Shown here: positions 9,485 through 29,660 of the stretch, piece after piece
How the letters are laid out: each line of letters starts with the position of its first letter
Numbering within the stretch: position 1 is the first letter of the stretch
From: Bacteroidota bacterium
GTDB lineage: Bacteria; Bacteroidota; Rhodothermia; Rhodothermales; Bin80
Assembly (NCBI GenBank): GCA_026709335.1
Contig: JAPOTE010000106.1
Coordinates: 1 to 41,494 of the forward strand
Direction of reading: 5' to 3'
Length of the DNA: 41,494 nt
The notes under the pieces: generated by a model
What the model saw: only the letters and a program-made list of their open reading frames with translations
The model's database searches: none
Told to the model about the DNA's origin: nothing
Program-made: the position numbers and the translations under genes

Positions 9485-10246
9485 ATGCACATAATGCCAA
9501 AATTTTCTGTTCTATCTCTTACTTTGATTTTGACCGCTTTCTGCCAAGTATTGGGACAAACCCCTGATACATGGGAAGTTCACGATCTCGATCGACCTCA
9601 GCCACGGATTGTAACCCCGGCAGGTTTGGCCGCATCTCCTCCCCCATCTGATGCAATTGTATTATTTGATGGTACGCACTTCAATGAATGGACTCATGCG
9701 AATGGAGACCCGGTCAGTTGGATTTTACGAGATGACTATATGGAAGTCAAACCGGGTACAGGAATCATTCAAACCAAACAATCCTTTGGAGATATTCAGC
9801 TTCATATTGAGTGGGCAACTCCAAACAGTGGAACAGGACAGGACAGCGGCAATAGCGGTGTATATTTCATGAGTACCTACGAAGTCCAGGTTCTGAACTC
9901 ATACAATAACAAAACATACCCTGATGGTCAAGCTGCATCGCTATACGGACAATATCCTCCACTTGTAAATGCGAGTCGGCCCCCGTTGGAGTGGCAATCC
10001 TATGATATCATCTTCAGACGCCCTCATTTTGAAAATGATGGAACCTTGAATCAACCCGCAATCGTGACCATCTTTCATAATGGGATCCTCGTACAGGATC
10101 ACGTAGCTTTGACTGGCCCTACTTCACATAAATCCCGCCCGCCCTATGAGGCCCATGAAGACGCTTTACCATTATTTCTACAAGATCATAACGAACCTAC
10201 CCGCTTCCGAAATATCTGGGTTCGTAACTTAGAATCAGATCTATAA
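9485..10246 (+). CDS. secreted 3-keto-disaccharide hydrolase family protein (DUF1080)
   Basis: The 253-residue protein has a signal peptide ending ...AFCQVLGQ. It is followed by one DUF1080 domain: AIVLFDGTHFNEWTHANGDP, ...EVKPGTGIIQTKQSFGDIQLHIEWATP, then GNSGVYFMSTYEVQVLNSY and PPLEWQSYDIIFRRP, all family hallmarks. Characterised members cleave glycosidic bonds of 3-keto-glycosides by elimination/hydration. This makes it a natural partner of the GMC oxidoreductase encoded divergently. The start could be ATG 9485 or ATG 9494; the second gives a tidier signal peptide (MPKFSVLSL). It ends 20 bp before the ROK kinase ATG, so the two form an operon. Location would be the periplasm or outer surface. 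Confidence 0.88.
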   Translation: MHIMPKFSVLSLTLILTAFCQVLGQTPDTWEVHDLDRPQPRIVTPAGLAASPPPSDAIVLFDGTHFNEWTHANGDPVSWILRDDYMEVKPGTGIIQTKQSFGDIQLHIEWATPNSGTGQDSGNSGVYFMSTYEVQVLNSYNNKTYPDGQAASLYGQYPPLVNASRPPLEWQSYDIIFRRPHFENDGTLNQPAIVTIFHNGILVQDHVALTGPTSHKSRPPYEAHEDALPLFLQDHNEPTRFRNIWVRNLESDL

Positions 10247-11492: not shown

Positions 11493-11759
11493 GTACCCAA
11501 GGCTTATTCACCGCATTTTGATTGAACGAGAGGGCAAAAAGATAGCATAAATAGAACCATGCAGAATGTACTACTCTTTGATGAACGGCGATGTGAAGAG
11601 ATAGATATCAATCTGTGAGATATATCTGCGTCTATCCTCCAAGGCATAGATCATTGAAAGATGAACCACATCATCCCTCAGATATCTGAACATCAAATTC
11701 CCAGATTCTTTGGGGGTGCATCTCCAAAGATAATATAGTTTGAAGCATGTTTGTATCCG

Positions 11760-11833
11760 TCGGGACGGCGAGATTCGAACTCACGACCCCTTCAACCCCA
11801 TTGAAGTGCGCTACCTGGCTGCGCCACGTCCCG
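11760..11833 (-). tRNA. tRNA-Pro (anticodon GGG)
   Basis: Read on the minus strand this folds as a standard cloverleaf. The acceptor arms are CGGGACG and CGTCCCG with discriminator A, the D stem is GCGC/GCGC, and the anticodon stem is CTTCA/TGAAG around loop ATGGGGT, which gives anticodon GGG (proline). The variable loop is 5 nt. The T arm is GTGAG-TTCGAAT-CTCGC with one G-T wobble. CCA is not encoded: ACGG follows the acceptor stem. It sits between the MerR-type and RodZ-type genes, in the same direction. Confidence 0.95.
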
Positions 11834-12419: not shown

Positions 12420-15308
12420 CTAGCTGGGTCTGGTAGACTTACCTCCATGAACACTGGGTTCAGCGCACCATTGTTCGCGCACAACTGCGACATTACCAAG
12501 CAAGTGATCTGGTACCCCCAAAAGGGTTACCAGAATTGCATGATCAAGCTCAATGCGCGCATCATCTCTGTAGGCTTCATTTGCAGGCAGGAATTTTTTA
12601 TCACGAAAATCATTGAATATTTTTTCACAGAGATCAAGTTGCTCATTGCTGAAGCTACTTGTATTGACGGATAATACACGAGGCAGAACCGAGATAGTTA
12701 GAATAGAGCGTCCCTTCTGCTGCCTACTTCCAGTCCACCAAGAGGATATCAAGCCAAGAGTCGTATTCGCCCACAGTACAATCGGAATTTCCCATTCTTT
12801 CTTGGTAATAAAATTTGGCCATGCAGGGCCACCAAGGGAAGGTTTTTCGGTCATACAAGCAGCCAAGGACTGAGCATTAACCTGAAAGCCAAGGCTGAAA
12901 TGTAGCCGGGATGCTCCATCCTGCCACACCTTTACAGCTTCTTCTCGAAGGCCTATTCGAGGAATTCCTTGCCGGTCTGAAGCAACGATCATCTGCCTCT
13001 CACGGCTTGAATTATGCCCCCATAGCATTGGGTATTCGGAAATCTGTGATAGCAGTTCAAGGTCAAAAGGTCCACGTGGTGTACCGTTGCTATTCCGTCC
13101 ATTTATATCCCTGTGCAAGAAACCGCGGCGACCGAGTTCTCCAAGTTCACAGATCGGTATAGAAATAGCAGATGCCATTCGAGGCAAGAGCAGGCTTCCT
13201 TCAGCAAGTGAACGCATAAGAATTAGCAAAGAAGCCTCCTTAACTGCGAAACCTCGCCAGTTCTTTGTTCGAAAGAAGTTACCTACATCATCAGCTTTGG
13301 TCAATCGGATCCTGCCCGCCCTCAGAACACTGTCCCGTCGACTCCGCTCAATTACTTTAGCTGTAACAGCAGCTTCAAGCTGAGTAGAAGGCCTATGGAA
13401 GATATTTGTTATAAACGGGGCCTCCAACGACTTCTCATTCTCTTTCTTGCGTGTCGCTACTATGAGAATCTCTGCCATTTTTGTATCGGCCGAAAATGCT
13501 CGGGCAGTACTTCCTTCGGCTGCAATACCAACAATGATAATATCTTCATAGCATCGGCGTAGCAATTCCCGAGCGTTTTCCCAAGATTTTCCCTGCATGA
13601 AAGTTGCAGGTAAAACCAGAGCGAGCACTCCGCCCGGGCGAAGCTTGGCATGTCCTAAATCTATAAAATTGGATGCAAGTCCAGCATTCCCATGTCCGGC
13701 TGGATCGGTCAACCCTTTCCTGATTTCCTTAAGACGTGCAGACATTTTTTCTTGCTCCTCCTTTTTCGTGCCAAACCCTGCGAATGAAGGCACAGGGACT
13801 TCGGTTGCTTCATGGTTCGTTGGTCGAGTAAATGGAGGATTCATAATCACAAGATCCATAGATCCGTGAGGAACTTCAACAATGGCACCATCCACATCAT
13901 CCGCCACGGCTCCTTTTCCAGTCAATGCCTTACGTCCTGTCCCGAAAATTGCTCGGGTTTCATTGGTCTCCATCAAATCAAGAGATCCAATGAATATTCC
14001 GTTCTCGTCTCCATTATCACCATACGGCATGTTGATGATATGTGTATGGCCATACGTTTTGCCTGGGTGCATTCCTGAGAGTGTTGCAGCAGTCAGATGG
14101 ACGGCAGATGGCATAATATCTGCGGCGGTAAACACCGACTCCATCATTTTAGCGTGTAGCCTTCCATCATCCCCACCATTTCGTCGATAACGAGATGTAA
14201 GGGCCTGGTATGTTGCTCCCAGCAGTGCACCCGTCCCACAGGCAAGATCTGCCAGTTTAAGGGAAGTAATCTGTTCAGGATCACTCCAGTCAATGCGAAG
14301 ACGGGAAACCGCCAATTCGGCCAAAAGCGTAGAAGAAGACGGTAGAGTATAAAAAGTTGCCAAAAACTTACGGTCTGTAATGAGTTGCTGGAACATTCGC
14401 CCCGACAAATCCTGGATATCCACCGTACCGAATTGTTCTAATTCAGATGCCATCTTATCCAATATAAGTATGACTTTCTGTGCATCTTTCTCTGGTAAGA
14501 TCATAAAAAGATCCGATGCCAAACTGAAAATCGGCCAGTAATTGATCTCTAAAATGACTCGCCAACAGCCAAGTACATCCCACTTAATGATCGTTCCGAA
14601 TTCAGTTTTGTAATCTTCAAGATATTTGATCTCGGGATGGAGCCGGGCGAGACGCATATGAAAAATGACTGCATTGGCAAGAATGGCCATAGCCATTCGA
14701 GTGGTTTGCTCCCCTTCTTCCTGATGAAGCTCTTGTGCAAGTTGATCAAGAATGTATTTGGGGGCGTGAAACTGGAGATAGCCCGCAGCTTGGCTGACCC
14801 CCAGTTCCAGTGTCTCAACTCCTTTAGTAACTCGCCGCTCGGATAAGGCCACCGTTTCTACACAGTTTGCCAAATCATCTAAATTACCTTCAATCCATCC
14901 TCTAGATGGCCAACGTGTATACTCGTCATACAAACTCTCTTTACCATCATAGGTGTATACTGCATAGAAATAACGTGAGGCCTGCACAGCGGAATCAAGA
15001 GATTCCTGTTCAATTGTCCTAAGGGAGTTAGGCAACTTGATTGCAATACACTGTTCCACCTCTTCACCTGTGACTTTGATCGTTTTCCCTAATCGTTTAT
15101 ATGCGTCAGATTCCACCGTAGTAGCAGGCGAAAACTCTGTTTCCAAAATAACTGTTAGCCCGCCTATATGAGAAATAACGATATCCGGCTGCTTCTTCTT
15201 TTCGACAAGGACATTTGTCTGTTCTGCCTGTACGCTCCAATTAGGGAGTTTACCTCTCAGGCAATCAGCGAGCTTTACATTCAAGGTTTTTTCCGAATTC
15301 GTGGGCAT
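12420..15308 (-). CDS. N6-adenine DNA methyltransferase with nuclease-like N-terminus (type IIG-like/orphan)
   Basis: This is a 962-residue restriction-modification-type protein. Residues about 30-70 resemble a PD-(D/E)xK nuclease core (PD at 41-42, VILETE at 53-58), but the expected ExK is ETE, so cleavage activity is doubtful. A helical stretch leads into the methylase: FLATFYTLPSSSTLLAELAV, SAM-binding motif I DLACGTGALL (from 354), and catalytic motif IV NPPF at 490-493. NPPF marks adenine-N6 methylation. The C-terminal about 350 residues would recognise the target DNA. No restriction, specificity or helicase gene adjoins it, so it is either a single-chain type IIG-like enzyme or an orphan methylase. 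Non-coding DNA on both sides and its isolation among housekeeping genes suggest horizontal acquisition (inference). Confidence 0.88.
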   Translation of the reverse strand: MPTNSEKTLNVKLADCLRGKLPNWSVQAEQTNVLVEKKKQPDIVISHIGGLTVILETEFSPATTVESDAYKRLGKTIKVTGEEVEQCIAIKLPNSLRTIEQESLDSAVQASRYFYAVYTYDGKESLYDEYTRWPSRGWIEGNLDDLANCVETVALSERRVTKGVETLELGVSQAAGYLQFHAPKYILDQLAQELHQEEGEQTTRMAMAILANAVIFHMRLARLHPEIKYLEDYKTEFGTIIKWDVLGCWRVILEINYWPIFSLASDLFMILPEKDAQKVILILDKMASELEQFGTVDIQDLSGRMFQQLITDRKFLATFYTLPSSSTLLAELAVSRLRIDWSDPEQITSLKLADLACGTGALLGATYQALTSRYRRNGGDDGRLHAKMMESVFTAADIMPSAVHLTAATLSGMHPGKTYGHTHIINMPYGDNGDENGIFIGSLDLMETNETRAIFGTGRKALTGKGAVADDVDGAIVEVPHGSMDLVIMNPPFTRPTNHEATEVPVPSFAGFGTKKEEQEKMSARLKEIRKGLTDPAGHGNAGLASNFIDLGHAKLRPGGVLALVLPATFMQGKSWENARELLRRCYEDIIIVGIAAEGSTARAFSADTKMAEILIVATRKKENEKSLEAPFITNIFHRPSTQLEAAVTAKVIERSRRDSVLRAGRIRLTKADDVGNFFRTKNWRGFAVKEASLLILMRSLAEGSLLLPRMASAISIPICELGELGRRGFLHRDINGRNSNGTPRGPFDLELLSQISEYPMLWGHNSSRERQMIVASDRQGIPRIGLREEAVKVWQDGASRLHFSLGFQVNAQSLAACMTEKPSLGGPAWPNFITKKEWEIPIVLWANTTLGLISSWWTGSRQQKGRSILTISVLPRVLSVNTSSFSNEQLDLCEKIFNDFRDKKFLPANEAYRDDARIELDHAILVTLLGVPDHLLGNVAVVREQWCAEPSVHGGKSTRPS

Positions 15309-16832: not shown

Positions 16833-16944
16833 ACTCAGCTCTGTGAACTCAGGGAAGTGTTGATTGACTAGATTCCACAAACCAAGATGGGAACCGTTCG
16901 CTTAGCTCTGTGAGCTCAGGGAAATGTTGTGTAGCCAGATTCCA
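16833..16944 (-). repeat. tandem duplication at the 3' end of the cvpA-like gene, out of frame
   Basis: Two 45-bp copies (16900-16944 and 16833-16877) lie 67 bp apart, are 36/45 identical and encode WNLATQHFPELTELS and WNLVNQHFPEFTELS. The second copy is not in the frame of the annotated protein because 67 is not a multiple of three. Four of the seven differing codons are synonymous in the peptide-preserving frame, which suggests the second copy was translated in the past. The frame of copy 2 stays open to a stop at 16737-16739. Confidence 0.75.
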
Positions 16945-17394
16945 TGCATATGGCAATAATTCATATACATGTTCATAAAGTGCAGAAGAGATACGTGCAT
17001 CATCTGATGGAATTCCAAATAGTGAGGCCAGATAAAACGTCAGACTGAGTAGCAAACCCGAAGACAAGATCCCAAGGGCCGCTCCTAATATCCGATTCAA
17101 TCCACCAACCAACACGATCTTTTTGACAATACCGTCCAGAAAACGGACGCCAATCATAAAACACAGTTGCATACCCATGAATACAGCTAAAAAGCCTGCA
17201 ACAGGGCTATATTCCTCAGGAATACCGGCCTGTCCCTCAATCCATTCCCCTGCCCCATCCATATACATGTAACCAATTACGAATGAAGCAATAAGGCTGG
17301 TGAGTCCAAGAACTTGGCGTATAAGTCCGCGGCGCAAGCCTGAGAACACTCCCACACCCAGTACAACGACTACTAACAAATCAACCCAGTTCAT
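16849..17394 (-). CDS. cvpA: CvpA family membrane protein
   Basis: This is a 181-residue inner-membrane protein with four predicted transmembrane helices: about 5-22 (LLVVVVLGVGVFSGL), 28-46, 65-85 and 100-125 (ILGAALGILSSGLLLSLTFYLASLF). The N-terminus MNWVDLLVVVVLGVGVFSGLRRG is the standard CvpA opening (N-W-D, then a G-x-x-x-G-x-R-G-L turn). Members are linked to colicin V production, biofilm formation and envelope stress resistance. The usual C-terminal tail is altered: it ends soon after a 15-residue element that is duplicated downstream in another frame, so the natural protein may have been about 37 residues longer. It is upstream of the CbiX-like gene and downstream of the PEGA-like gene, all minus strand. 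Confidence 0.85.
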   Translation of the reverse strand: MNWVDLLVVVVLGVGVFSGLRRGLIRQVLGLTSLIASFVIGYMYMDGAGEWIEGQAGIPEEYSPVAGFLAVFMGMQLCFMIGVRFLDGIVKKIVLVGGLNRILGAALGILSSGLLLSLTFYLASLFGIPSDDARISSALYEHVYELLPYAWNLATQHFPELTELSERFPSWFVESSQSTLP

Positions 17395-17460: not shown

Positions 17461-18246
17461 TCAATCAAGGATGAAGCGTACTGCCAAGGTCACAAGCCCT
17501 GCTTGCATGACTCCCAGTGCGATTCCTGAATAATCGTCTAATCTAGCTACACGTGGCCGTAATGAAGCGTCACCGGTTTCCTGATATTCATCATTTATCC
17601 GATCCGCCCGAAATTTATAGTGCACCGCTACTACTCCTGCTACTACTGCTACTGCGGATGCACTCCAGTCAATCCATCTTCTTTGACGACTTACTGTACG
17701 GCTCATCCCTTGATGTTGATTTGCTGGGCTGAGTGCTGTCAGTGAAACCTGATAACGATTCCATAATTCTGTCTTTGGTTCGATGATACCAGGTGTATAT
17801 CCCTCCAGCTCAATATAAAACATGCCCTTATAAACATCTGCGGAGCTGAATACAACAGGAGTAACTCCGAGAAATCTACGTTCCGATCCTTGCTGGAGCC
17901 AGGCATCGGCTCCGAAAGGGTGCGATTCAATGCGATGATACATCGGAAAATTTAACGTAACGTAAACACTATCTCCGGGCTTTGCTTCAATGGGAGCCTG
18001 AAGCGGGGGCATACTCCACGCCGCGGGGCGAAGCGTTGACAAGCTAATCATCTCGGCGGTGGACTCAATCCAGTAAGGACTCCCTCGAACCAGCCCCAAA
18101 TACAACGAATCCGCGTACACCGCGGCATCCATATCGTTACTTGTAATGTGAACAAGAACCTGTGACTGTGCCAGCCCAACAGATGGCAGGATGCTCAAGA
18201 AGATTCCTAAAAACTTTGTCCAATACTGACTACCTTGTTTCGTCAT
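17461..18246 (-). CDS. PEGA-like exported protein with C-terminal membrane segments
   Basis: The ATG at 18246 is preferred because it leads directly into a signal peptide (MTKQGSQYWTKFLGIFLSILPSVGLAQ). A start at 18276 adds ten residues. The mature part begins VLVHITSNDMDAAVYADSLYLGLVRGSPYWIE, a PEGA-like beta domain. A second PEGA-like unit (residues about 115-150, RRFLGVTPVVF...GMFYIELEGYTPG) follows. A hydrophobic helix lies near residue 195 (WSASAVAVVAGVVAVHY) and another at the C-terminus. PEGA domains typically occur in surface or envelope proteins and are thought to bind polysaccharide or protein; the exact role is unknown. The start overlaps the BamB-like stop by 17 bp, so the two are probably translationally coupled. 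Confidence 0.65.
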   Translation of the reverse strand: MTKQGSQYWTKFLGIFLSILPSVGLAQSQVLVHITSNDMDAAVYADSLYLGLVRGSPYWIESTAEMISLSTLRPAAWSMPPLQAPIEAKPGDSVYVTLNFPMYHRIESHPFGADAWLQQGSERRFLGVTPVVFSSADVYKGMFYIELEGYTPGIIEPKTELWNRYQVSLTALSPANQHQGMSRTVSRQRRWIDWSASAVAVVAGVVAVHYKFRADRINDEYQETGDASLRPRVARLDDYSGIALGVMQAGLVTLAVRFILD

Positions 18247-19390
18247 TGTGATTGGAAGTAACAAGCCGGACCACATGACGTGGTTCTGTTAAAATAATCA
18301 ATCCATTTTCAGTGACTCCAATTCCACTCTTTACTCTTCCCGGTAACTCAATGGTTTGAAGAAGTTCTCCTGTATAACGATCAAATGCATACAGGCTGTT
18401 CCCCATGCTTCCAGTATAAATCACATCTGTGGTCATCAAAGGTGGTGCCACCAATGCATCCGGGCACTGTGTATCCCATTTGACTTGTCTGGTATGCTGA
18501 TCGAAAACCCTGAGCACCCCATCGGATCCTCCGATTACTACAAATTCATCATCTACCGCCGGTGTCGAAATACGAATCGTCTCATCATCCAGTACGGCAT
18601 CCCAACTTATAGTCCCGGTTTGCAAGTCCATGGCGATTAGGCGCCCCCGTGTAGTGGATATGAATAACTCTTTCTCATGTACTGCGGGGGTAACATAGAC
18701 TGGATCCCCAATATGTGTGGACCATATCAGTGCTCCGTCCTCGAGCGACAACGCTAGAATCGTTCCATTATCAACCCCGACAATTACAAATTCGAGATGG
18801 ATCAGTGGACGTGCATATACACGTGAACGTTCGGGAATCTGGTATTTCCAAACGTTTGCACCCGTTGTGACGTCAAAACGCTGAACTTCCCCGGCGGTAT
18901 TTACAATAATCCCCCCCGAATCCACAGGTCCGATTCCGACTTGAATCGGGGCTCCTTCAGTGCGCCAGCGCATCACAGCCCGATCAAGATCATAGGCCGC
19001 TAATGCTCTACGTCCCTGAGCAAGTGGGACAATCACTGTATTGTCAATGACTATCGGAGAGCCATTTACTGCATTACCAAATCGTCTATCCCCAATGCGC
19101 TTTCCAGTATTCAAATCAATTACATGGACTTCTCCCTGCCTAGTGGCAACCATTACCACATCTTCATATATCAGCGGAGCATCCGGTCCAAATCCAGCCC
19201 GAGCATTGTAGGTCCAGGCAATTTCAAGAGGAGGTTCCGGTTCAGTTAGGATCTCCGGTGCAGAAGTGATTTTCAGTGCTAAGCCACTGCAGCTGGTGCA
19301 AGATAGCAGAAGCAATAAAATGGAATTTCTAAAAATCAAAGCCAAAAAAGAATTGACGGAAAAGATTCGGCTCACGTCTTTGAAATCCAT
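18230..19390 (-). CDS. BamB-like beta-propeller lipoprotein
   Basis: The 386-residue lipoprotein has lipobox LLSC (Cys31, with another Cys at 34). Then comes an eight-bladed PQQ-like propeller: repeats such as VVMVATRQGEVHVIDLNTGKRI, FVIVGVDNGTILALSLEDGALIW, LFISTTRGRLIAMDLQTGTISWD and YTGSMGNSLYAFDRYTGELL, each with the 'G.v.AlD..tG...W' blade pattern. Size and layout match BamB, the lipoprotein that helps BamA insert outer-membrane proteins. This fits its position directly after a gene encoding a beta-barrel protein. The first codons overlap the end of that gene by 62 bp. A downstream TTG start inside the overlap is possible and would still leave a signal peptide. Assignment as a true BamB is likely but not certain. 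Confidence 0.8.
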   Translation of the reverse strand: MDFKDVSRIFSVNSFLALIFRNSILLLLLSCTSCSGLALKITSAPEILTEPEPPLEIAWTYNARAGFGPDAPLIYEDVVMVATRQGEVHVIDLNTGKRIGDRRFGNAVNGSPIVIDNTVIVPLAQGRRALAAYDLDRAVMRWRTEGAPIQVGIGPVDSGGIIVNTAGEVQRFDVTTGANVWKYQIPERSRVYARPLIHLEFVIVGVDNGTILALSLEDGALIWSTHIGDPVYVTPAVHEKELFISTTRGRLIAMDLQTGTISWDAVLDDETIRISTPAVDDEFVVIGGSDGVLRVFDQHTRQVKWDTQCPDALVAPPLMTTDVIYTGSMGNSLYAFDRYTGELLQTIELPGRVKSGIGVTENGLIILTEPRHVVRLVTSNHNDETR

Positions 19391-22280
19391 CCCGGAACCG
19401 ATAACCTAGATCATATCGCAAAACCAATCCACCAAAAAGATTCAAACGAAATCCCAGGCCTGCAGAACCAAGTGTTTCACCGGCGTAAATCTGAGGGATT
19501 CGCTCATGATAGTGCTCATTCCATGTATGGGCTGCGTCAAAAAATAATGCACTTCTGAGGTTCACAATTCCCAGAATTGCCAGCGGCGGTATGTATACCG
19601 ACGGATGCTCCACAAGAGGAAAACGCAATTCATGTGATGTAAACCATGCTTTATTGCCACGCACATCAAAAAACGGATACCCTCGTAAATCCCAACTTCC
19701 CCCCATGAACCACAAGCGGGCTTCTCTTCCATGATTCATTCGACCCAGTGCCCGTGATGCAAATGATACATTTCGAGCTAATCTTAAATAGTGCCTAAAA
19801 TCTGCCTCAATGGTGATGTAATTCACATTGGAATACAAGATATCAGTCGTATAGGCTGCCGAAAGCCTTCCCCTCCACCCAACCATGGGGCCATTTGAGC
19901 CATATAATGTATTATCATGAACAAGACTCACCTGATTCGTCAGCAACAACGCTTCGCGGTCAATCCGGCGCAGGGGAATTTCCTTGTGATCCCAACTCAG
20001 GGAAGTCGCAACTTCAACACGGCGAAACATTGAAATCGGGTAACTGACTGCCCCGTATCCTCCCCACACTTCTTCCCAGTAACGTGGAAAATCAGTGGGA
20101 GCGTCAGGATCGGTCAAATCATACCTCAATCCTCCATATCGATAAACACCATATCCAATGTTGGCCCTGCGATTGAGATGAAGTCGGGAAATGTTCACAT
20201 TCAAGCTTCTAAGAAAATCGCCAGTATACTGGCTTGTACTATACAGGGTAATGAAGAAGCGGTCATTTCCCAACAAATCTGAAAAAGCCAAAACCGCAGC
20301 TCCACCCGTTCCCCAGACTGCACTACTGGAAATCTGGCCCTGAGCGATATCCAACCCATACCGTTTCCGGTATCGTAACTCATCCATTGCAGACGTAGCT
20401 TGAATCCGAGGGAAGGTCCATGGAAGTTCTGCCTCCAGAGCGGGAGCTTGTGGCTCCGTAGACACAGGCCTGCTTATTAAGGTATCGAGGCCTCCCAGAG
20501 TTCGAATGGTAAATCGGTAGTTTTCGAATGAAGAGAATATCACCTGCTCATCCTGAGTCCAAACAGGATCATAGACAGAGGTGGTCAGATCTGTCAGTCG
20601 CTTCTTCCATCGGATACCACGAGTTGGTAAAGTTCGATAACTTGTTCCGTTACTAGCCAAAGAAACCAGAGGCAGCTTAGGTTTGGCATCAATAACGTAA
20701 AGATCTTGTCCGTCATAACGGCCGGTTGAATCCTTTTTGGTACTTGTATAAATAATCTTGGAACCATCCGGACTCCAGTTAGGCGAAAAATCATGCTGAA
20801 CCCCATAGGTCACATAATCTATTTTTCCTGTTTCCAATTCATAGGTAAACAGATTATAGGCGTTCTCAAAACCTTTTGAAGTTCGGTCAGACGAGAACAC
20901 AAGAAAATTTCCATCCGGACTCCAGGCTGGATCACGCTCATCATAGCTGTCATTCGTCAATTGCCTCAGGTGATCTTGCTCGATCTGGTATGCATACAGA
21001 TCAATAAATCCGCTTTGGTCAATCGCCACAAAAGCAAGTTGTTTTCCGTCAGGGCTCCATGACGGTGAATAGAGGGCCGTGATTCCATCAAAACTGTACA
21101 TAGGGCCCGTTTCATTGGACTCCAGATCATGGATATGAATCACATCTGCATCACCACTCTTTGTCACAAAAGCCAGTCGGCCTGACTGAGAAACACTCAT
21201 TCGGCTATCCGGAAGATGAAACGATTCAAATTGGCTATTTCTTTCACCAGGCACCAAGATTTTTGGGGTCTCCAAGGGAGCATATGTGGAGTCAACCGGA
21301 ACATAGTATACATTGCTGTATCCACCGTGGTTTGCGGTAAACAAAACCCACCGTTGTCCATCTTGCTTCTGATAATAAACCGGTTTTGAATTGAATCCCT
21401 TCACAGAAAGTCCTTCAGCCAGAAGAGTGGGACTCTCGGCAGTATTGAGTTCAGGATAATAAGTTCGGCGTAGCCACTGTTGCCACTCGGCACTAATCTC
21501 ATTCAAATCTTCCTGTAGTGTGTACTCTATAACCTTCCGAAAATCCCGATTCATCCAGGCATTCTCGATCAGCAGGAGCAGCTTTTCTTCGCCATAAAAT
21601 TCCGAAATAAAACGACACAGCGCCTCTCCCTGTTTGTACATCACAAAAGTGCCGCCAATTCTGTAGATGTTTTCCAGAGGGACCAGATAGTTCGCGAAAA
21701 TTGCATCCCGTATTATCATTTCATGCTGATAATCTTGCGGGCCGGACCAATATTCCGCCAAGCCTTCAACAAACCACAATGGAGGCAATCTGTCCATGGA
21801 AATACGATAATCCCGGAAGACCCGCGCAAGTTTATGCATTGTGAATACATGCACCATTTCATGACGAATGACTCTCCGGAATCGATGCAGGTTTCCGTTT
21901 GCAGGAATTACAACTCGTCCCTTCAGAAACTCATAAAAGCCTCCTACGCCATCAGGGATAAACCCGTCTGTGATGTTTGTCTGCTTAAAATGAAGTTGAG
22001 AGGAATAAAATACAATCGGGACACGGCGGGTTACAGAAAAATTGAAGCGGTTCTGTAATTCCGCATACGCCTCTTCCGCAAACGCAGCACCATGCTCCGC
22101 AAGCACCTGCATTTCGGGATAGAAATACACATCAAAGTGCTCCGTCTCGAGGACGCTCCAGTCAAAATCTTCATATTGGATCTTGTTGCGCCCGAAGTAA
22201 TTGTTATACTGTGCTGACGTCGGTAGTACAGCAAGCCCCAGAATAACACAAACACCCCATACCGTACTCTTGTGAAACAT
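19329..22280 (-). CDS. outer-membrane fusion: metallopeptidase-like, TolB-like propeller and beta-barrel
   Basis: The preferred ATG at 22280 opens a signal peptide (MFHKSTVWGVCVILGLAVLPTSAQ); an upstream ATG at 22319 adds 13 residues. The product, about 983 residues, has three parts. First is a gluzincin-like domain with RHEMVHVFTMH (HExxH) and, about 28 residues later, PPLWFVEGLAEYWS with a candidate third zinc ligand Glu, as in peptidase MA-like proteins. Second is a TolB/WD40-like propeller with repeated SWSPDGKQLAFVA, AWSPDGNFLVFSS and NWSPDGSKIIYTS. Third is a C-terminal beta-barrel of about 350 residues like the bacterial surface antigen/BamA family, ending in the aromatic-rich FRQFFFGFDF expected for BAM recognition. 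It probably sits in the outer membrane with the soluble parts in the periplasm. SIS isomerase precedes it by 11 bp; BamB-like follows with overlap. Confidence 0.85.
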   Translation of the reverse strand: MFHKSTVWGVCVILGLAVLPTSAQYNNYFGRNKIQYEDFDWSVLETEHFDVYFYPEMQVLAEHGAAFAEEAYAELQNRFNFSVTRRVPIVFYSSQLHFKQTNITDGFIPDGVGGFYEFLKGRVVIPANGNLHRFRRVIRHEMVHVFTMHKLARVFRDYRISMDRLPPLWFVEGLAEYWSGPQDYQHEMIIRDAIFANYLVPLENIYRIGGTFVMYKQGEALCRFISEFYGEEKLLLLIENAWMNRDFRKVIEYTLQEDLNEISAEWQQWLRRTYYPELNTAESPTLLAEGLSVKGFNSKPVYYQKQDGQRWVLFTANHGGYSNVYYVPVDSTYAPLETPKILVPGERNSQFESFHLPDSRMSVSQSGRLAFVTKSGDADVIHIHDLESNETGPMYSFDGITALYSPSWSPDGKQLAFVAIDQSGFIDLYAYQIEQDHLRQLTNDSYDERDPAWSPDGNFLVFSSDRTSKGFENAYNLFTYELETGKIDYVTYGVQHDFSPNWSPDGSKIIYTSTKKDSTGRYDGQDLYVIDAKPKLPLVSLASNGTSYRTLPTRGIRWKKRLTDLTTSVYDPVWTQDEQVIFSSFENYRFTIRTLGGLDTLISRPVSTEPQAPALEAELPWTFPRIQATSAMDELRYRKRYGLDIAQGQISSSAVWGTGGAAVLAFSDLLGNDRFFITLYSTSQYTGDFLRSLNVNISRLHLNRRANIGYGVYRYGGLRYDLTDPDAPTDFPRYWEEVWGGYGAVSYPISMFRRVEVATSLSWDHKEIPLRRIDREALLLTNQVSLVHDNTLYGSNGPMVGWRGRLSAAYTTDILYSNVNYITIEADFRHYLRLARNVSFASRALGRMNHGREARLWFMGGSWDLRGYPFFDVRGNKAWFTSHELRFPLVEHPSVYIPPLAILGIVNLRSALFFDAAHTWNEHYHERIPQIYAGETLGSAGLGFRLNLFGGLVLRYDLGYRFRDGFQRREPNLFRQFFFGFDF

Positions 22281-22330
22281 GAGTCGATAGTATTTTAGGA
22301 GCGCTACGCCTAAGTCCATAGACCGTTCCG

Positions 22331-23383
22331 TTACGAATCCTGAATCAAAGCTGTCTTCAGCTTGGAAATGAGTCCTACCGGAGATGGATCTATCTCATTC
22401 AGGATCGCGAGATATAAACTTACCCAGTCACCTAGATACATGATTGAGAGGAGTCTTGCTAATCTACTTTTTCCCTCGCTATGAACTTCATTCCAACTGT
22501 GTGCGTGGGGTTCCAGAAGTGATCGTGTTACATCCAGTCTTCGCTGGGTACGTTCATGATCTTCAAAATCACGTAGCGCAATCACTGCAAGCTGTTTTAA
22601 CTCTGATTGAAACCTGGCCCATCCCATCACTTCATTGTGATTCATTTCAGGGAGCAGATTCCCCACGGCAAAACTCTTGGAGTTTTCATGAATCTGATTC
22701 CGCCACCTAATATTCGCTACAGCAAACTGCTCACTGCTGTAAATGACTGGAAATTGTCCATATAATATATCGGCCAGCTTGATTGCCAGATTATCTGGAT
22801 CAGACACATTGGACATTAACTCCGATTGTACAGCCGTAATGGCAATCGCTTCGTCCCAGTCCTGCATCTTCACTGCAGTAAGCTGGAGTGATTCAGTGAT
22901 AGTCAGTAATGCAGAAAGTGAATGTGGCAGAGCTGCGCGAGGCTGGATACCGGTTGGAAGCTGCATACAGGGGATGTGTTTCTCCTGGGCTCGCGCTGTA
23001 AGTTCACCCCCCGTTGAAATTGCAACAACCCTCGCGCCACGTGCACAAGCATCATCAAATGCTGCCAAGGTTTCTTCGGTATTGCCCGAATAACTGGATG
23101 TCACAACGACTGTATCAGGCCCTACCCAAGCGGGTAGTAAATAACTTCGTGATACAACAACAGGAATGGATGCATGGTCGATTGCAAGTGTTGCCAAAAT
23201 ATCTCCACCAATAGCACTGCCACCCATACCGGCCACGACAACACCAGTTACTCCATCTCCTGGCCAACCAGAGATCTTGGCTTGCATAGCATTGGCCCTC
23301 CCCTGTCTGAGCTGATCTGGAAAGCTCCGAACAGCTTCATACATTCCTTCTAAATCAATTTGGTCTAATGTTTTTTTAGTCAT
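22331..23383 (-). CDS. bifunctional phosphoglucose/phosphomannose isomerase
   Basis: This 350-residue cytosolic SIS-fold enzyme has GVVVAGMGGSAIGGDIL (sugar-phosphate loop), VVTSSYSGNTEETLAAF (SIS signature S-Y-S-G-N-T-E-E-T) and RWRNQIHENSKSFAVGNLLPEMNHNEVMGW. The last is the family hallmark with catalytic Glu and His. Family members interconvert glucose-6-P/fructose-6-P and mannose-6-P/fructose-6-P. They are characteristic of archaea, Bacteroidota and actinobacteria. Length is as expected. It begins the envelope operon (19329-22280 follows after a short gap) and shares an 82-bp divergent promoter region with the cytochrome lipoprotein at 23466. A role in sugar-nucleotide supply for envelope glycans would fit the neighbours. 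Confidence 0.93.
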   Translation of the reverse strand: MTKKTLDQIDLEGMYEAVRSFPDQLRQGRANAMQAKISGWPGDGVTGVVVAGMGGSAIGGDILATLAIDHASIPVVVSRSYLLPAWVGPDTVVVTSSYSGNTEETLAAFDDACARGARVVAISTGGELTARAQEKHIPCMQLPTGIQPRAALPHSLSALLTITESLQLTAVKMQDWDEAIAITAVQSELMSNVSDPDNLAIKLADILYGQFPVIYSSEQFAVANIRWRNQIHENSKSFAVGNLLPEMNHNEVMGWARFQSELKQLAVIALRDFEDHERTQRRLDVTRSLLEPHAHSWNEVHSEGKSRLARLLSIMYLGDWVSLYLAILNEIDPSPVGLISKLKTALIQDS

Positions 23384-23465
23384 CCTTGGTGAGAATCAAT
23401 GAATTAAGTCAGGATTGACTAATTTACAACACACGTAGCATAGCACCTTACAGCTTCACCTCGTT

Positions 23466-26189
23466 ATGAAGAGTTCTCGCCGGGAAATTACGTCTTCTCA
23501 TATACAGAATAGCCCTTGTGACACAAGGGCTCAAATACGATCTTTATGGTGGCATATTTCATTCGTTTTTCCTTTCTCTGTTCTCCTTTCCCTGGTTGCT
23601 TGTCAAACGCAGGAATCTCTGGAACCAATTCTACTGGATTCGTCTGAGCTTCCCGAATATGAGCACTCACTCGATCATGCGGGAATTATTAGTAACTGGT
23701 CTGAAGAATTCTACCATCACGGCCTACAAGTCTATCGAACCAACTGTTTTTCCTGTCATGGGACGCCAGATATACCTGGTACACTACCCCATTCAAGGCA
23801 ATTTTGGAAAGAATCATTCAAGTATGGAAATGATCCACTCTCGTTGTACAATACTCTCACGCTGGGACGTGGACTAATGCCACCCCAGTTGCATCTTGTT
23901 CCAAAAGAAAAATATGCTGTCATTTTGTTCATTCGGGAACAGTTTCTTCACGACTTAAATCCGGATGCGTATTTTGAAGTCACCCCTTCATACCTCAATC
24001 AACTTCCAGGAGGAACTTCTCTTGGCCCTCCATCCAAACGGTCGACCCCTTGGAAAGAAATGGATTATGGGAGATTCCTGATGCGAACTTATGAGGTTGC
24101 GCATGCATCTGATGGGTCAAAAGAGATCAATCACACGGGAAGACCCATCCCCAATGAAGATTTTAGCGATCGTAATTTTGCTTATAAGGGCATTGCCATA
24201 AGGCTGGACCCGGGAACCGGTGGAGTTGCCGCAGGCAACGCTTTCGTACTGTTTGATCATGATCTCATGCGAATGGCGGCTTTCTGGACCGGAAAAGGAT
24301 TCATTGATTGGGAAGATATCCTGCTGGATGATCAACACAATGTATTTCCTCGGATTGTAGGGGATTTGCACATCGAAACCTCAATGAATCCTGGCTGGGC
24401 CAATCCGATCACGGGAGCTCTCATCGATCCGCGTTTTCGAGCTGTGGATGGTCGCCAGTTCGGGCCACTGCCAAAAAGCTGGGCTCATTACCAAGGCCTT
24501 TATGTGTATGATCAACGTGTGATTTTACGCTACTCTGTTGGGGAAGCTCAAGTCCTTGAATCGTATACACTCGAAGCAGATACTTTATTAGCCAGAACGA
24601 TCAATGTGACCAATGTAAAGCGCCCTCTGACACTCAATGCTGCCCCGGACAGTGTAGAGTTAACGATTATTTCTCCCTCCGATGGAATGCTGACCTCCAC
24701 TGATGGAGTACTCCAGGTGGCTGTCACCCATGATGTTAACTTCAAGTTGATCTATGGAGGCAGCGATATTGTATCTACGCCCGCTGAGGACCTTTCCTCG
24801 TACAAAAAAGGAAGCTTATCAGAGGAAGTTCCCGTCCTTCAATCTCCTATTCTCTCATCTACAAGTGAGGGGTACGTCGTGGATGTTCTTACGCTTCCCG
24901 TAGATACTCCTTGGAGGAGCCGCATCCGCCCAACTGCGATCGATTTTATGACGGAGGGAAATGAAGCAATTGTGACGACCATTGATGGCGATGTATGGCA
25001 TCTCTCAGGAATAACCCGGACATCGGGATCTGTTGAGTGGCGACGGATCGCATCCGGCCTTTTTCAGCCACTTGGAGTGCGTGTCATTGAAGGAGAAATT
25101 TATGTGGGAAGTCGAAATCAGATTGCCCGCCTGCATGACCTGAATGGAGATATGCAGATAGATTACTATGAAAGTTTCAATAATGACCACCAAGTTACCG
25201 AACACTTTCACGAATTCGCAATGGGCTTACAGGCCGATGAAGCAGGAAATTTTTATTATGCGAAAAGTGCACGTCATGCCCGCAGAGCTCTGGTTCCTCA
25301 GCATGGTACCCTAATACGCGTGAGCCCCGATGGGAAACAAAGTACGATTCTTGCCACGGGATTTCGGGCAGCAAACGGAGTTACTGTCAATCCAGATAAT
25401 TCATTTATGGTTACCGATCAGGAAGGGCACTGGAATCCCATGAACCGAATTAATCTTGTTGAACCCGGAGGATTTTATGGGAACATGTATGGTTATGGAG
25501 CACCCCCAGATTCATCGGATGCTGCCATGATGCAACCCCTTATGTGGATTGACATGAAGCACGATCGATCACCAGCCGAGCTGCTTTGGGCAACCAGTGA
25601 TCGCTGGGGCCCCCTTTCAAATAAGCTCCTTAGCTTTTCTTACGGCTACGGCCGCATATTTCTGGTCATGCCTCAATCTGTAGAGAACACCCTGCAAGCC
25701 GGGATTGTGCAACTACCTTTAGCTGATTTCCCCACTGGATTGATGCGAGGACGCATGAATCCAGCGGATGGGCAACTTTATGTGGTTGGAATGTCTGCAT
25801 GGGCAACTAGTCAGATGATTCAAACCGGAGGAATTTATCGAATCCGATACAATGGCGGAGCGGTTCGCATGCCCGTCTCCATGCGTGTACTCGAGAATGC
25901 AGTGGAGATCTCTTTCACATCTGCCTTACAGGAAACATCTGCAACCCGGCCAAGCAATTATGAAGTAATCACCTGGGATCTTCTACGCTCGCGTCAATAT
26001 GGATCTGATCGCTATAACATGCAAAAATTACGAATCGCGAGTATCTCCCTGAATGATTCAACCATCCTACTGAGCCTACCCGGCTTGAAACCAACATGGA
26101 TCCTCGAGATCAATTACGATCTGGTTGACTCTAATGGAATCGAGTTCACTGGTGTGATCCAAAGCACAGTCCATGCTATTGGAAAATAA
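23466..26189 (+). CDS. cytochrome c/DUF6797/propeller lipoprotein (dehydrogenase-like)
   Basis: The 907-residue protein has a 27-residue N-region, a hydrophobic stretch and lipobox LVAC (Cys46), so it is probably a lipoprotein. A haem-c module with NCFSCH (94-98) follows, with a distal Met expected in the GRGLMPPQ segment. Next comes a DUF6797-type domain (about 190-330: TPWKEMDYGRFLMRTYEV, FAYKGIAIRLDPGTGGVA, GKGFIDWEDI). The C-terminal half is a sugar/sorbosone dehydrogenase-like propeller (TAIDFMTEGNEAIVTTIDGDVW, FRAANGVTVNPDNSFMVTDQEG, AELLWATSDRWGPLSNKLL). Such proteins likely oxidise a carbohydrate or alcohol outside the cytoplasm. Substrate unknown. It resembles in plan, but is not obviously a close paralogue of, the dehydrogenase at 3595-6483. 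Confidence 0.85.
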   Translation: MKSSRREITSSHIQNSPCDTRAQIRSLWWHISFVFPFSVLLSLVACQTQESLEPILLDSSELPEYEHSLDHAGIISNWSEEFYHHGLQVYRTNCFSCHGTPDIPGTLPHSRQFWKESFKYGNDPLSLYNTLTLGRGLMPPQLHLVPKEKYAVILFIREQFLHDLNPDAYFEVTPSYLNQLPGGTSLGPPSKRSTPWKEMDYGRFLMRTYEVAHASDGSKEINHTGRPIPNEDFSDRNFAYKGIAIRLDPGTGGVAAGNAFVLFDHDLMRMAAFWTGKGFIDWEDILLDDQHNVFPRIVGDLHIETSMNPGWANPITGALIDPRFRAVDGRQFGPLPKSWAHYQGLYVYDQRVILRYSVGEAQVLESYTLEADTLLARTINVTNVKRPLTLNAAPDSVELTIISPSDGMLTSTDGVLQVAVTHDVNFKLIYGGSDIVSTPAEDLSSYKKGSLSEEVPVLQSPILSSTSEGYVVDVLTLPVDTPWRSRIRPTAIDFMTEGNEAIVTTIDGDVWHLSGITRTSGSVEWRRIASGLFQPLGVRVIEGEIYVGSRNQIARLHDLNGDMQIDYYESFNNDHQVTEHFHEFAMGLQADEAGNFYYAKSARHARRALVPQHGTLIRVSPDGKQSTILATGFRAANGVTVNPDNSFMVTDQEGHWNPMNRINLVEPGGFYGNMYGYGAPPDSSDAAMMQPLMWIDMKHDRSPAELLWATSDRWGPLSNKLLSFSYGYGRIFLVMPQSVENTLQAGIVQLPLADFPTGLMRGRMNPADGQLYVVGMSAWATSQMIQTGGIYRIRYNGGAVRMPVSMRVLENAVEISFTSALQETSATRPSNYEVITWDLLRSRQYGSDRYNMQKLRIASISLNDSTILLSLPGLKPTWILEINYDLVDSNGIEFTGVIQSTVHAIGK
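23511..23531. repeat. perfect 10-bp-arm palindrome in the 5' coding region
   Basis: AGCCCTTGTG and CACAAGGGCT flank a single central A. It covers codons 16-22 of the cytochrome lipoprotein gene, 45 bp after the start. It could be an operator, an mRNA hairpin slowing early translation, or chance. It lies close to the divergent promoter with the isomerase gene. Confidence 0.5.
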
Positions 26190-26257
26190 GTTCAACTCTT
26201 CAAGTTGACCTCATAAAGGAGAGATCGTCAAATATCTGGCCAAAAAATATTGAGTCG

Positions 26258-28327
26258 TTACCTGATGACAACAAATTTTCGGCTGACGAATTCCCCACCG
26301 TACTTTGCATACAATACATACGTACCAGGAATTAATTGATCCACTGGAATCGGAATATCGGATTTTCTATTCCTGATAACTTCATCAGATATAGTCATTT
26401 GCAGGCGCCCCAGTAGGTCATATACTTCAATTTTTAACTTCTCTGTCTGCTGAAACGTGGCTGGAAACCAGGCTTGATGGTTCGACGGATTTGGATAAAT
26501 CGTTCCCATAATTCTTTCGGAAACCGAACTTGCATAAGGTGATTTGTCATTCAAAGTACCTGTTACCTGTGAGCTTCCAATACCATAGATGATTGCAGAT
26601 CTGGAATCTTGATGCCCGTCAAATCCTTCCAATTTCCAATAAGGAGAAATACCAAAATCAATATCCAGATCATCCCCCGTCCCTAGAATTTTATCGGGAC
26701 CAGCTCCAACAAACCCGGCAGGTTCTGGATTCGCGTCCATAATTTGCCACGGATAATCTGCATGCCCTGTATGAAAACCCGCCAGTAAATGCCCTGCCTC
26801 ATGAGCAATAACGTTCCCCAGCGCCAATCCAAGAAGGTCGGCCATCGAAACTCCCGGTGCTCGCTCTACAGCAGAAAACGAGGACTGTACTGATGGATCT
26901 GTTATCCGATCCAAGAGGATGACAGCAGTTTCATTCAAGACAAAATTTCCCACATCAACACTCTCGGCAATACCCGTGGTTTGCAACCCGAGCTCACCTT
27001 GGCTTCCTCCAACAATAATTCTGGTCACATTCGGAGCTCCCCAAGGGTCGAGATCATCCTTACTGTTTAGTATCTCCAAGGACAAATTTCCTCCCAATTC
27101 CTCCTGTAAATCATGAATTAAATTTTCCGTGAGGGCGGCCAATGAAAGATCAATGATATAATCTTCTTGATGCCCTATTCCCTGTTTTTCCAGAAATTGA
27201 CTCAGCGGAGACAATCTTGCATCACTGCGTCCTCCAAGCATTTGGGCATCTAACTCAGCTCCATCAAAATCAATAAACAGAACCTGTCTAGCCGATGAAT
27301 CTTTAGGACCAGCACGATGGGCAGCTAATATTGCTGTATAGCTGCCGCTCCCCTGAGCGACGCGTAAGTTATAATTCCCCGTTTCTGCAATGACTAATGC
27401 AATGTTTGCATTCCCTCCCCTTAAAAGAGGACTATTCCGAGGAAATAAATCACTGCGATCCAAAGCAGACGCGATCTGAACAGCCCCGTTGATATCTGCC
27501 AGCATAAGGTGTAGGGCTGCATCTTGAACAGCGATGCTAAGCACATCTCCGGCTTGTAAGTATACTCTGTACCAATCAAGATCTTCAGCATCAATACCAA
27601 GTGTAATTTCATAAGGTCCCTCACTCCCTGCTTTAGGGCCCGAACCAGGGTCAAACGGATCCTCAGGCCACCACGAATTAATTCCCCTGACAACTGCAAA
27701 ATATGATCCACTCGCAGGAATTACGACCTCCAGATAGCTATCCTTTGTACCATGTATTCCATTATCATTCGATTCCAGACGGAAACCCGTACTATCATAA
27801 AGCGCAACCTTACTGTCAAGACTGGAATCAGTCAGCGGTGTATCAATATCTATGGTGACTGTCTGCCCAGCGACGAGTCTGCCCATTTTATAAAAATCAA
27901 AATCACCAGTTCCTCTACCTCCACTACCATGCGGCCCATCTCCGATAGCACCATGAGTCTTGACTCGTGTCCCATGTTTGATTTCCAAATCACGAGCTAG
28001 ATGAATCGCTCCATCATCCATTGTTTCCCGTTCAGGAGAAGGCCTATGAATCGGGGGCTCGGGAGAAAGGGTCCCGCTAATTTCGAAGCTTGATTGTGCC
28101 TCTAAAGTTCCAAGAACTTCCGCATCTCCCTGGGTATCGTTTTCCCCCCGCCTATCTGCGGGTTCCTTTTCTCGAATGGTGCGTTCAGGTGCCTTTCCCG
28201 TGATAGGCAATGGATTCCTATGCTCAGACCGAGAATGGGTCAGACAGAAGGGAGATATACCCTGGCCAAAAACTGGAACCGCAATCATGCCCGATAAAAA
28301 AATTAAAACCGCCAAACGAACTACCAT
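26258..28327 (-). CDS. T9SS-secreted metzincin-like metalloprotease with PPC domain
   Basis: The preferred ATG at 28327 (28375 is an alternative) gives a signal peptide MVVRLAVLIFLSGMIAVPVFG. A Ser/Glu/Arg-rich spacer (about 30-120) leads to one or two bacterial pre-peptidase (PPC) beta domains (FDFYKMGRLVAGQTVTIDIDTP, SGSYFAVVRGINSWWPEDP). The protease region has VIAHEAGHLLAGFHTGH, an HExxH followed by a third His (HEAGHLLAGFH), and about 11 residues later IMDANPEPAG, a possible Met-turn. These are metzincin signs, but the Gly of the canonical HExxHxxGxxH is displaced by one. The C-terminus (about 85 residues: IYPNPSNHQAWFPA, LKIEVYDLLGR, LIPGTYVLYAKYGGEFVSRKFVVIR) is a type A T9SS sorting domain, so it is exported across the outer membrane and its tail cleaved. 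It is convergent with the cytochrome lipoprotein gene. Confidence 0.87.
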   Translation of the reverse strand: MVVRLAVLIFLSGMIAVPVFGQGISPFCLTHSRSEHRNPLPITGKAPERTIREKEPADRRGENDTQGDAEVLGTLEAQSSFEISGTLSPEPPIHRPSPERETMDDGAIHLARDLEIKHGTRVKTHGAIGDGPHGSGGRGTGDFDFYKMGRLVAGQTVTIDIDTPLTDSSLDSKVALYDSTGFRLESNDNGIHGTKDSYLEVVIPASGSYFAVVRGINSWWPEDPFDPGSGPKAGSEGPYEITLGIDAEDLDWYRVYLQAGDVLSIAVQDAALHLMLADINGAVQIASALDRSDLFPRNSPLLRGGNANIALVIAETGNYNLRVAQGSGSYTAILAAHRAGPKDSSARQVLFIDFDGAELDAQMLGGRSDARLSPLSQFLEKQGIGHQEDYIIDLSLAALTENLIHDLQEELGGNLSLEILNSKDDLDPWGAPNVTRIIVGGSQGELGLQTTGIAESVDVGNFVLNETAVILLDRITDPSVQSSFSAVERAPGVSMADLLGLALGNVIAHEAGHLLAGFHTGHADYPWQIMDANPEPAGFVGAGPDKILGTGDDLDIDFGISPYWKLEGFDGHQDSRSAIIYGIGSSQVTGTLNDKSPYASSVSERIMGTIYPNPSNHQAWFPATFQQTEKLKIEVYDLLGRLQMTISDEVIRNRKSDIPIPVDQLIPGTYVLYAKYGGEFVSRKFVVIR

Positions 28328-28688
28328 TTTTGTACAATAATTGGCAGGATCAGGGGGAATGAGTTGTCCGTGCACGCATGCGAACTTCCTCGAACGGCTG
28401 GTTGGTGTGGAGGGGACAATAAGTTAAATTCAGCTAAATTTGCCCTTTACGCTTTGCTGATAAGGTACGATATTTCTTCTGGATGCAAAGCTTTTTGAAA
28501 ACCTGAACCGTTGCAGAATATTCCCTGGTAGCCAAGATAACACTCCACATAACCGGGTTCAAATGCGGAAGATTGGGTCCATGATTGTGACCAAGTGTGC
28601 CACGCTAAAAGAAACCTGTTAAACGAAGGACAAATCCTGGTCGGAAAGTATTTCCGACCAGAACCAAAGGCGCACAACTGATCAACCG
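28328..28688. other. intergenic region upstream of the T9SS protease
   Basis: Apart from the hairpin at 28637-28661, nothing is recognisable. An open minus-strand frame (28447-28677) has no family signs and runs through the hairpin, so it is not called. The promoter of the protease gene must lie here. Confidence 0.4.
28637..28661 (-). terminator. hairpin downstream of the polyprenyl synthetase gene
   Basis: CTGGTCGGAAA and its exact reverse complement flank a 3-nt loop, an 11-bp stem starting 28 bp after the stop codon of the polyprenyl synthetase. Position and strength fit a transcription terminator or mRNA-end stabiliser, but the downstream T run is weak (GATTTGT), so Rho-independent action is uncertain. 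Confidence 0.5.
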
Positions 28689-29660
28689 CTAATAAATACG
28701 ATTCCCCATGTGACTGATCAGTGTACGCAACTCATCCGTATTTCCCGAAATTGAACTGATCCGATTCAAGGCATGAGATGTATAGCCTTGAATCTGTTTA
28801 CGGGCTTCATCCAAGATACCCAAAGCTTCCATCCGAGCTCGTGCTTTCGGAATTTCCTCACTGGCCAAACCTGATCCTGGGCGTATTCTGGTAAAAAACG
28901 TAGCATCTTCACCCGTAGCGCGCTGCCTCGCTTCTGCCAGTAAATAAGTTCCTTTCCCTTCAATTAGATCTCCCCCCTGAACCTTGCCCCAACGATGATC
29001 GTCAGCAATTAAATCCAAAAGATCGTCGAGAATCTGAAAAGCTCGGCCTATTGATGTACCTGCCTCTCTGAGAGCTAAGCAGACACCGGGGGATGCCCCG
29101 CCTATAATTCCGCCCATTTCAAGTGTAGCTGAAAGTAATCCACCAGTTTTGCCATCTACCATATGTAGGTAGTCATCTGTCGTCAACCCCTCCTTGCTTC
29201 CTATGGTCATGTCCAAAGCCTGCCCTTCACATAGCTCTCGTACCATTTTTCCAAATACGCGAGTAATGTACGCATGCGAGCCTGATGAAGTTTGACTCAC
29301 ACATTCACTTGCCAGAGCAAGTAAAACATCTCCGCATAAGATGGCAGTTTCGGTCCCCCATAACACATGAACCGTTTCACGTCCCCTCCGACTATCTGCA
29401 TGATCCATGATATCATCATGGACCAAAGAAAAATTATGAACCAATTCTACGGCCAAAGCCAATGGCATTGCCTGACGGCTATTGACACCAAAGATTTTGG
29501 CTGAAAGTAATAGCAAGACAGGTCGAATTCGCTTGCCCCCACCTGCAATCACGTATCGTACTGAATCATAGAGCTCATTCGGCTGATGATCTTTCACCAA
29601 ACTCGATAGACTTGATTCAATTTCGGCTCGGAGTTTTTCAACTGTAGTCTCAAGGTTCAT
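28689..29660 (-). CDS. polyprenyl diphosphate synthase (isoprenyl synthetase)
   Basis: This 323-residue cytosolic all-helical prenyltransferase has first aspartate-rich motif HDDIMDHADSRRG (Asp82, 83, 86) and second motif FQILDDLLDLIAD (Asp212, 213, 216). Both bind Mg-diphosphate. GGGKRIRPVL near residue 40 is the substrate-binding lead-in. It condenses IPP with allylic diphosphates to a chain for quinones or undecaprenyl-type lipids. The residues before the first motif (VHNFSLVHDD) would set chain length, but I cannot tell C15-C20 from longer. Length matches the family. It lies 37 bp downstream of adenylate kinase in the same direction and is followed by a strong hairpin, so it is probably the last gene of that operon. 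Confidence 0.93.
   Translation of the reverse strand: MNLETTVEKLRAEIESSLSSLVKDHQPNELYDSVRYVIAGGGKRIRPVLLLLSAKIFGVNSRQAMPLALAVELVHNFSLVHDDIMDHADSRRGRETVHVLWGTETAILCGDVLLALASECVSQTSSGSHAYITRVFGKMVRELCEGQALDMTIGSKEGLTTDDYLHMVDGKTGGLLSATLEMGGIIGGASPGVCLALREAGTSIGRAFQILDDLLDLIADDHRWGKVQGGDLIEGKGTYLLAEARQRATGEDATFFTRIRPGSGLASEEIPKARARMEALGILDEARKQIQGYTSHALNRISSISGNTDELRTLISHMGNRIY

Follow-up and report, generated by a model that had tools for sequence, protein, structure and literature searches.

A metallopeptidase-propeller-Omp85 fusion gene kept with BamB-like and PEGA-domain genes in Rhodothermales and other lineages

Three neighbouring genes in a 41,494-bp window of a Bacteroidota draft genome (2.8 Mb in 125 contigs, with Rhodothermales metagenome-assembled genomes as its nearest named relatives) constitute a dedicated outer-membrane set. 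This is well supported by their adjacency, their co-occurrence across genomes, a predicted 16-stranded barrel and invariant catalytic residues. The first gene encodes a fusion of a peptidase-like domain, a propeller and an Omp85 barrel, the second a BamB-like lipoprotein and the third a PEGA-domain protein. The original prediction, made from this window alone, had proposed a dedicated outer-membrane complex. The dedicated set stands, whereas we infer that the three proteins bind one another, and that the trio acts in outer-membrane assembly or proteolysis.

The three genes and their predicted products

Read 5' to 3' on the minus strand, the fusion gene is followed by the BamB-like gene and then by the PEGA gene (Table 1). 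The place first given for the three genes agrees with their open reading frames, as do the two overlaps, of 62 bp between the fusion and BamB-like genes (19329-19390) and of 17 bp between the BamB-like and PEGA genes (18230-18246). The 62-bp overlap is limited to close relatives, and other lineages mostly have overlaps of 1-13 bp or short gaps. A role of this overlap as a special signal was ruled out by the variation of its length between lineages. A scan for promoters and terminators returned sites no commoner than in shuffled sequences.

The fusion gene starts at 22280, at M14 of a 996-aa open reading frame, because orthologues begin at the matching position and several of them have stop codons closely 5' of it. 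The proposed catalytic pair H153/E154 was therefore correct in its residues but numbered on the longer frame; the true start gives H140/E141.

Table 1. Features of the locus, the fusion protein and a paralogue (window positions unless a protein or contig is named)
Feature	Position	Strand	Details
CvpA-family membrane protein gene (cvpA)	16849..17394	-	often-conserved downstream neighbour of the trio in Rhodothermales
PEGA-domain gene	17461..18246	-	261 aa
BamB-like lipoprotein gene	18230..19390	-	386 aa counted from first ATG
Fusion gene	19329..22280	-	983 aa
Bifunctional phosphoglucose/phosphomannose isomerase (PGI/PMI) gene	22331..23383	-	frequent upstream neighbour of the trio
Signal peptide	N-terminus of 983-aa fusion		
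Predicted Peptidase_MA/gluzincin domain	about 35-280 of fusion		H140, E141, H144, E172
TolB-like propeller	about 286-620 of fusion		
Predicted 16-stranded Omp85 barrel	about 641-981 of fusion		C-terminal end QFFFGFDF
Second peptidase-propeller-barrel chain	G000 contig C68:26684-28231		

In line with expectation, profiles, a structural model and PDB matches together place an HExxH peptidase-like domain, a TolB-like propeller and a BamA-like barrel in one chain. PD40 and Omp85 (PF01103) scored above the Pfam cut-offs in the window protein, and the Omp85 profile was found in all 26 homologues tested. Peptidase_MA_2 reached only 26-30 bits, just under its cut-off of 32.4. The assignment is settled nonetheless, because the same profile hit every homologue tested (28 of 28, best 1.7e-12). 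With its HExxH motif and a downstream glutamate in an MA-like domain, the fusion carries a predicted peptidase of the MA clan, gluzincin type. The four catalytic residues were invariant in 54 of 54 homologues, at identities down to 42%. A sequence search for a solved relative of the peptidase domain gave no significant match (best E 0.15), and the 50 best fold matches listed included no recognisable one. Profile comparison found this domain and the BamB-like protein to be unrelated, as expected.

The AlphaFold2 model of the fusion (mean pLDDT 83, pTM 0.80) has a mainly helical N-terminal domain, then the propeller and then 16 barrel strands (641-981). The barrel, whose formation was a test of the original prediction, is thus predicted to form. 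TolB was the best PDB match of the propeller and BamA that of the barrel. No match to a POTRA domain was obtained in the fusion, and the peptidase and propeller fill its N-terminal part. The Omp85 profile, the 16-strand model and the BamA barrels among the PDB matches identify the fusion as a member of the Omp85 superfamily.

The second protein had been expected to be a BamB-like lipoprotein, and its scores were 106 bits for PQQ_2 and 122 bits for TIGR03300. Its Cys34 is invariant and follows a hydrophobic, lipoprotein-type signal. Since the TIGR03300 score lies under the BamB equivalog cut-off of 285.2, we call the protein BamB-like and do not file it as BamB; its sequence indicates a beta-propeller lipoprotein of PQQ_2 type. 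No other BamB-type lipoprotein is encoded in the genome, and the one further PQQ_2 match there belongs to a dehydrogenase-like protein.

The third protein is recognised as PEGA-like, as predicted, through its family and the beta domains of its model. The window protein itself had no Pfam match, and PEGA (PF08308) was detected in 31 of the 41 members of its family. It consists of a signal peptide, two PEGA-like beta domains and a C-terminal hydrophobic helical hairpin (190-224, 227-260). In the model (pLDDT 90, pTM 0.60) the hairpin is formed by two long helices with a hydrophobic stretch in each. Judging from hydropathy and this predicted hairpin, the protein is probably held in the inner membrane.

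Conservation of the trio and its surroundings

The fusion is present in 80 named-genome loci, including Rhodothermales, Ignavibacteria, Kryptonia and one Calditrichaeota record. Among those with enough flanking sequence, the BamB-like gene lies next to the fusion in 64 of 67 and the PEGA gene next but one in 49 of 57, so the proposed conservation as neighbours was not refuted. The genome-wide check of co-occurrence that had been suggested gave a similar picture. Across 296 genomes of the phylum, 70 contain the full fusion. All 70 also have the BamB-like gene (66 found by the first search and the remainder by a profile check), which is adjacent to the fusion in 66; the first search found the PEGA gene in 63. 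Full-length BamB-like and PEGA matches were chosen by hand on score, length and place. Fisher tests on this co-occurrence ignore relatedness, and their values are not to be taken as probabilities. Chance adjacency was rejected, given how often the neighbours are retained (64 of 67 loci, 66 of 70 genomes).

Exceptions to this pattern are few. Four genomes that had seemed to combine a fusion with no BamB (G025, G059, G063 and G226) each have a divergent BamB-like gene adjoining the fusion. The PEGA gene was missed in about one tenth of the fusion genomes, at least one of which has a divergent copy. In four genomes the BamB-like gene and the fusion are unlinked yet both kept. The only genome with the BamB-like/PEGA pair and no fusion found is G306, where no fusion was detectable in the 6.7 kb preceding the pair; its assembly is fragmented. 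Much of the phylum does without the trio, and three genomes from a single family of the same order have none of its genes, which argues that the trio is not generally essential. No viral contig searched encodes a relative, and a link to viruses was rejected.

The gene order seen here (17461-29660), with polyprenyl synthetase (28689-29660), then PGI/PMI and then the trio, recurs in many related loci. In Ignavibacteria, genes for IPP isomerase, polyprenyl synthetase and PTS enzyme I precede PGI. As a functional partner PGI is a weak candidate, because its gene clusters with isoprenoid and PTS genes, and many Rhodothermales retain the trio without a PGI gene upstream of it. PGI is probably a housekeeping enzyme and not a member of the complex.

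The remainder of the window holds genes of other kinds. The product of 26258-28375 has an HEAGH motif, a PPC domain and a T9SS sorting tail and may be a secreted metallopeptidase. Two proteins with c-type cytochrome motifs lie at 3595-6483 and 23466-26189, one with DUF7133 and HEAT repeats and the other with DUF6797; near them are a GMC oxidoreductase (7423-9150) and a 3-keto-disaccharide hydrolase (9485-10246). A tRNA-Pro gene (11759-11833) adjoins a gene for a 962-aa protein (12420-15308) with a weak Eco57I-type methylase match, possibly a restriction-modification gene.

Relation to BamA and to known Omp85 systems

The genome also has a POTRA-bearing BamA with a long N-terminal part, encoded at C3, and the BamB-like gene lies in the trio and not beside this bamA. 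The fusion as the BamA of this genome was therefore rejected, and it is not the core of BAM. A paralogue of the same architecture (1033 aa) shares 28% identity with the fusion over the whole length and keeps HELVH and EGMAE. Weaker matches, at the level of this paralogue, occur widely in genomes of the phylum without the trio. In a search of 59 genomes, all matched, five of them with such a weaker match only. Hence, the architecture is an established family, of which the trio is one branch.

The trio resembles BAM with its BamA and BamB in combining a 16-stranded Omp85 barrel with a BamB-type lipoprotein. It differs in that BamA has POTRA domains where the fusion has a peptidase and a propeller. 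BepA of the M48 family, which works at the BAM complex of Escherichia coli, is a separate protein with TPRs. Both BepA and the fusion would place a zinc metallopeptidase at an Omp85 barrel on the periplasmic side, with activity here predicted. In contrast to the separate BepA, however, the peptidase of the fusion is of Peptidase_MA_2 type and covalently joined to the barrel. To our knowledge, no conserved partners of BamB-like or PEGA type accompany the patatin-Omp85 protein PlpD, in which an enzyme domain likewise precedes an Omp85 barrel; there the enzyme is a patatin lipase, whereas here it is a metallopeptidase followed by a propeller. BepA has been described as a zinc metallopeptidase that acts on an immature client at BAM (PMC8423444). 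The BAM complex of Flavobacterium johnsoniae, from the same broad group, is likewise an envelope complex with an Omp85 barrel at its centre, the complex of the trio being predicted, and the main text on it is silent on BamB, PEGA, a propeller or a peptidase (PMC12611786).

The closest precedent is the uncharacterised WD40-Omp85 subfamily, named by Heinz and Lithgow (2014), who remarked on its TolB-like propeller (PMC4104836). Classed by that description, the fusion is a WD40-Omp85 protein as far as its sequence tells, since a TolB-like propeller precedes the Omp85 barrel and POTRA domains are missing. For this subfamily, however, their text mentions neither an HExxH peptidase domain before the propeller nor a BamB-like or PEGA partner, and the fusion locus has both. 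Their separate 'Metallo' subfamily carries PF00149, which differs from the peptidase domain of the fusion (PMC4104836). In the open-access literature we found nothing closer on a peptidase domain in a WD40-Omp85 chain or on such partners. The view that the joint role of the set appears undescribed thus holds in part: the peptidase domain and the partners appear new in that literature, but propeller-bearing Omp85 proteins have had a name since 2014.

Possible roles of the trio

The anatomy and partnership of the trio are supported by its gene set, adjacency, domains, catalytic residues and predicted folds. For its topology, physical association, substrates and a function in proteolytic quality control, we propose the following. 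The three genes may encode a single envelope complex, in which the 16-stranded Omp85 barrel of the fusion would sit in the outer membrane. Omp85 barrels have an even number of strands, which places both barrel ends in the periplasm. Therefore, the propeller and the putative zinc metallopeptidase should extend into the periplasm, at the place of the POTRA domains of BamA. From its anchor in the outer membrane, the BamB-like lipoprotein would dock on these two periplasmic domains; the PEGA protein would reach up to them from the inner membrane, where its helical hairpin probably holds it. Such a complex might take in outer-membrane client proteins and use its built-in peptidase to remove or process stalled ones, following the logic of BepA at the E. 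coli BAM complex, while working alongside the ordinary BamA. We offer this reading of one periplasm-facing, protease-equipped Omp85 complex beside BamA tentatively, as quite possibly, though not yet probably, correct.

An alternative explanation might be that the Omp85 barrel exports its own peptidase and propeller, yielding a surface metallopeptidase with the BamB-like and PEGA proteins as export helpers. Surface display of the enzyme domain has been proposed for PlpD, as discussed in PMC4104836, and the fusion shares with it the position of the enzyme domain before the barrel. Moreover, 5 of 26 homologue barrels additionally match ShlB/FhaC, a two-partner secretion family. Yet, the propeller of the fusion resembles the periplasmic TolB, and its gene is kept with that of a BamB-type lipoprotein. 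The mean column identity of the peptidase domain, 69%, would also be unusual for a surface-exposed enzyme. Hence, we consider surface display unlikely.

Possibly, the BamB-like protein is simply the BAM lipoprotein of this lineage, serving BamA and encoded beside the fusion by an old operon accident. This would be consistent with its profile matches to BamB structures of the E. coli type (about 1e-42 to 1e-46) and with its being the sole such lipoprotein in the genome. BamA is generally present in outer-membrane bacteria, however, and the BamB-like gene tracks the fusion instead (70 of 70, with only one fusion-less genome having a full copy), even in the genomes where the two are unlinked. Its sub-cut-off TIGR03300 score also argues against this explanation, which appears improbable. 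Less probable still is a TolB-like tethering or signalling device, in which the propeller and BamB-like protein sense the state of the outer membrane, with PEGA as the relay to the inner membrane and a regulatory target as the substrate of the peptidase: the TolB fold match and the possible PEGA bridge would fit, but the recurrent neighbours examined include no TolQ/R/A-like gene and tethering does not require an Omp85 barrel.

Bacteria, mitochondria and plastids all rely on Omp85 proteins to build their outer membranes. A wider version of the preferred reading, that the trio is a second, protease-equipped barrel-assembly machine apart from BAM, with a private BamB-like and PEGA pair and spread across several deep lineages, seems to us rather doubtful. 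If true, a lineage-wide Omp85 complex with an attached peptidase and fixed partners would represent a second way of coupling assembly to quality control. The trio gives the WD40-Omp85 class of 2014 concrete partners and a testable active-site residue.
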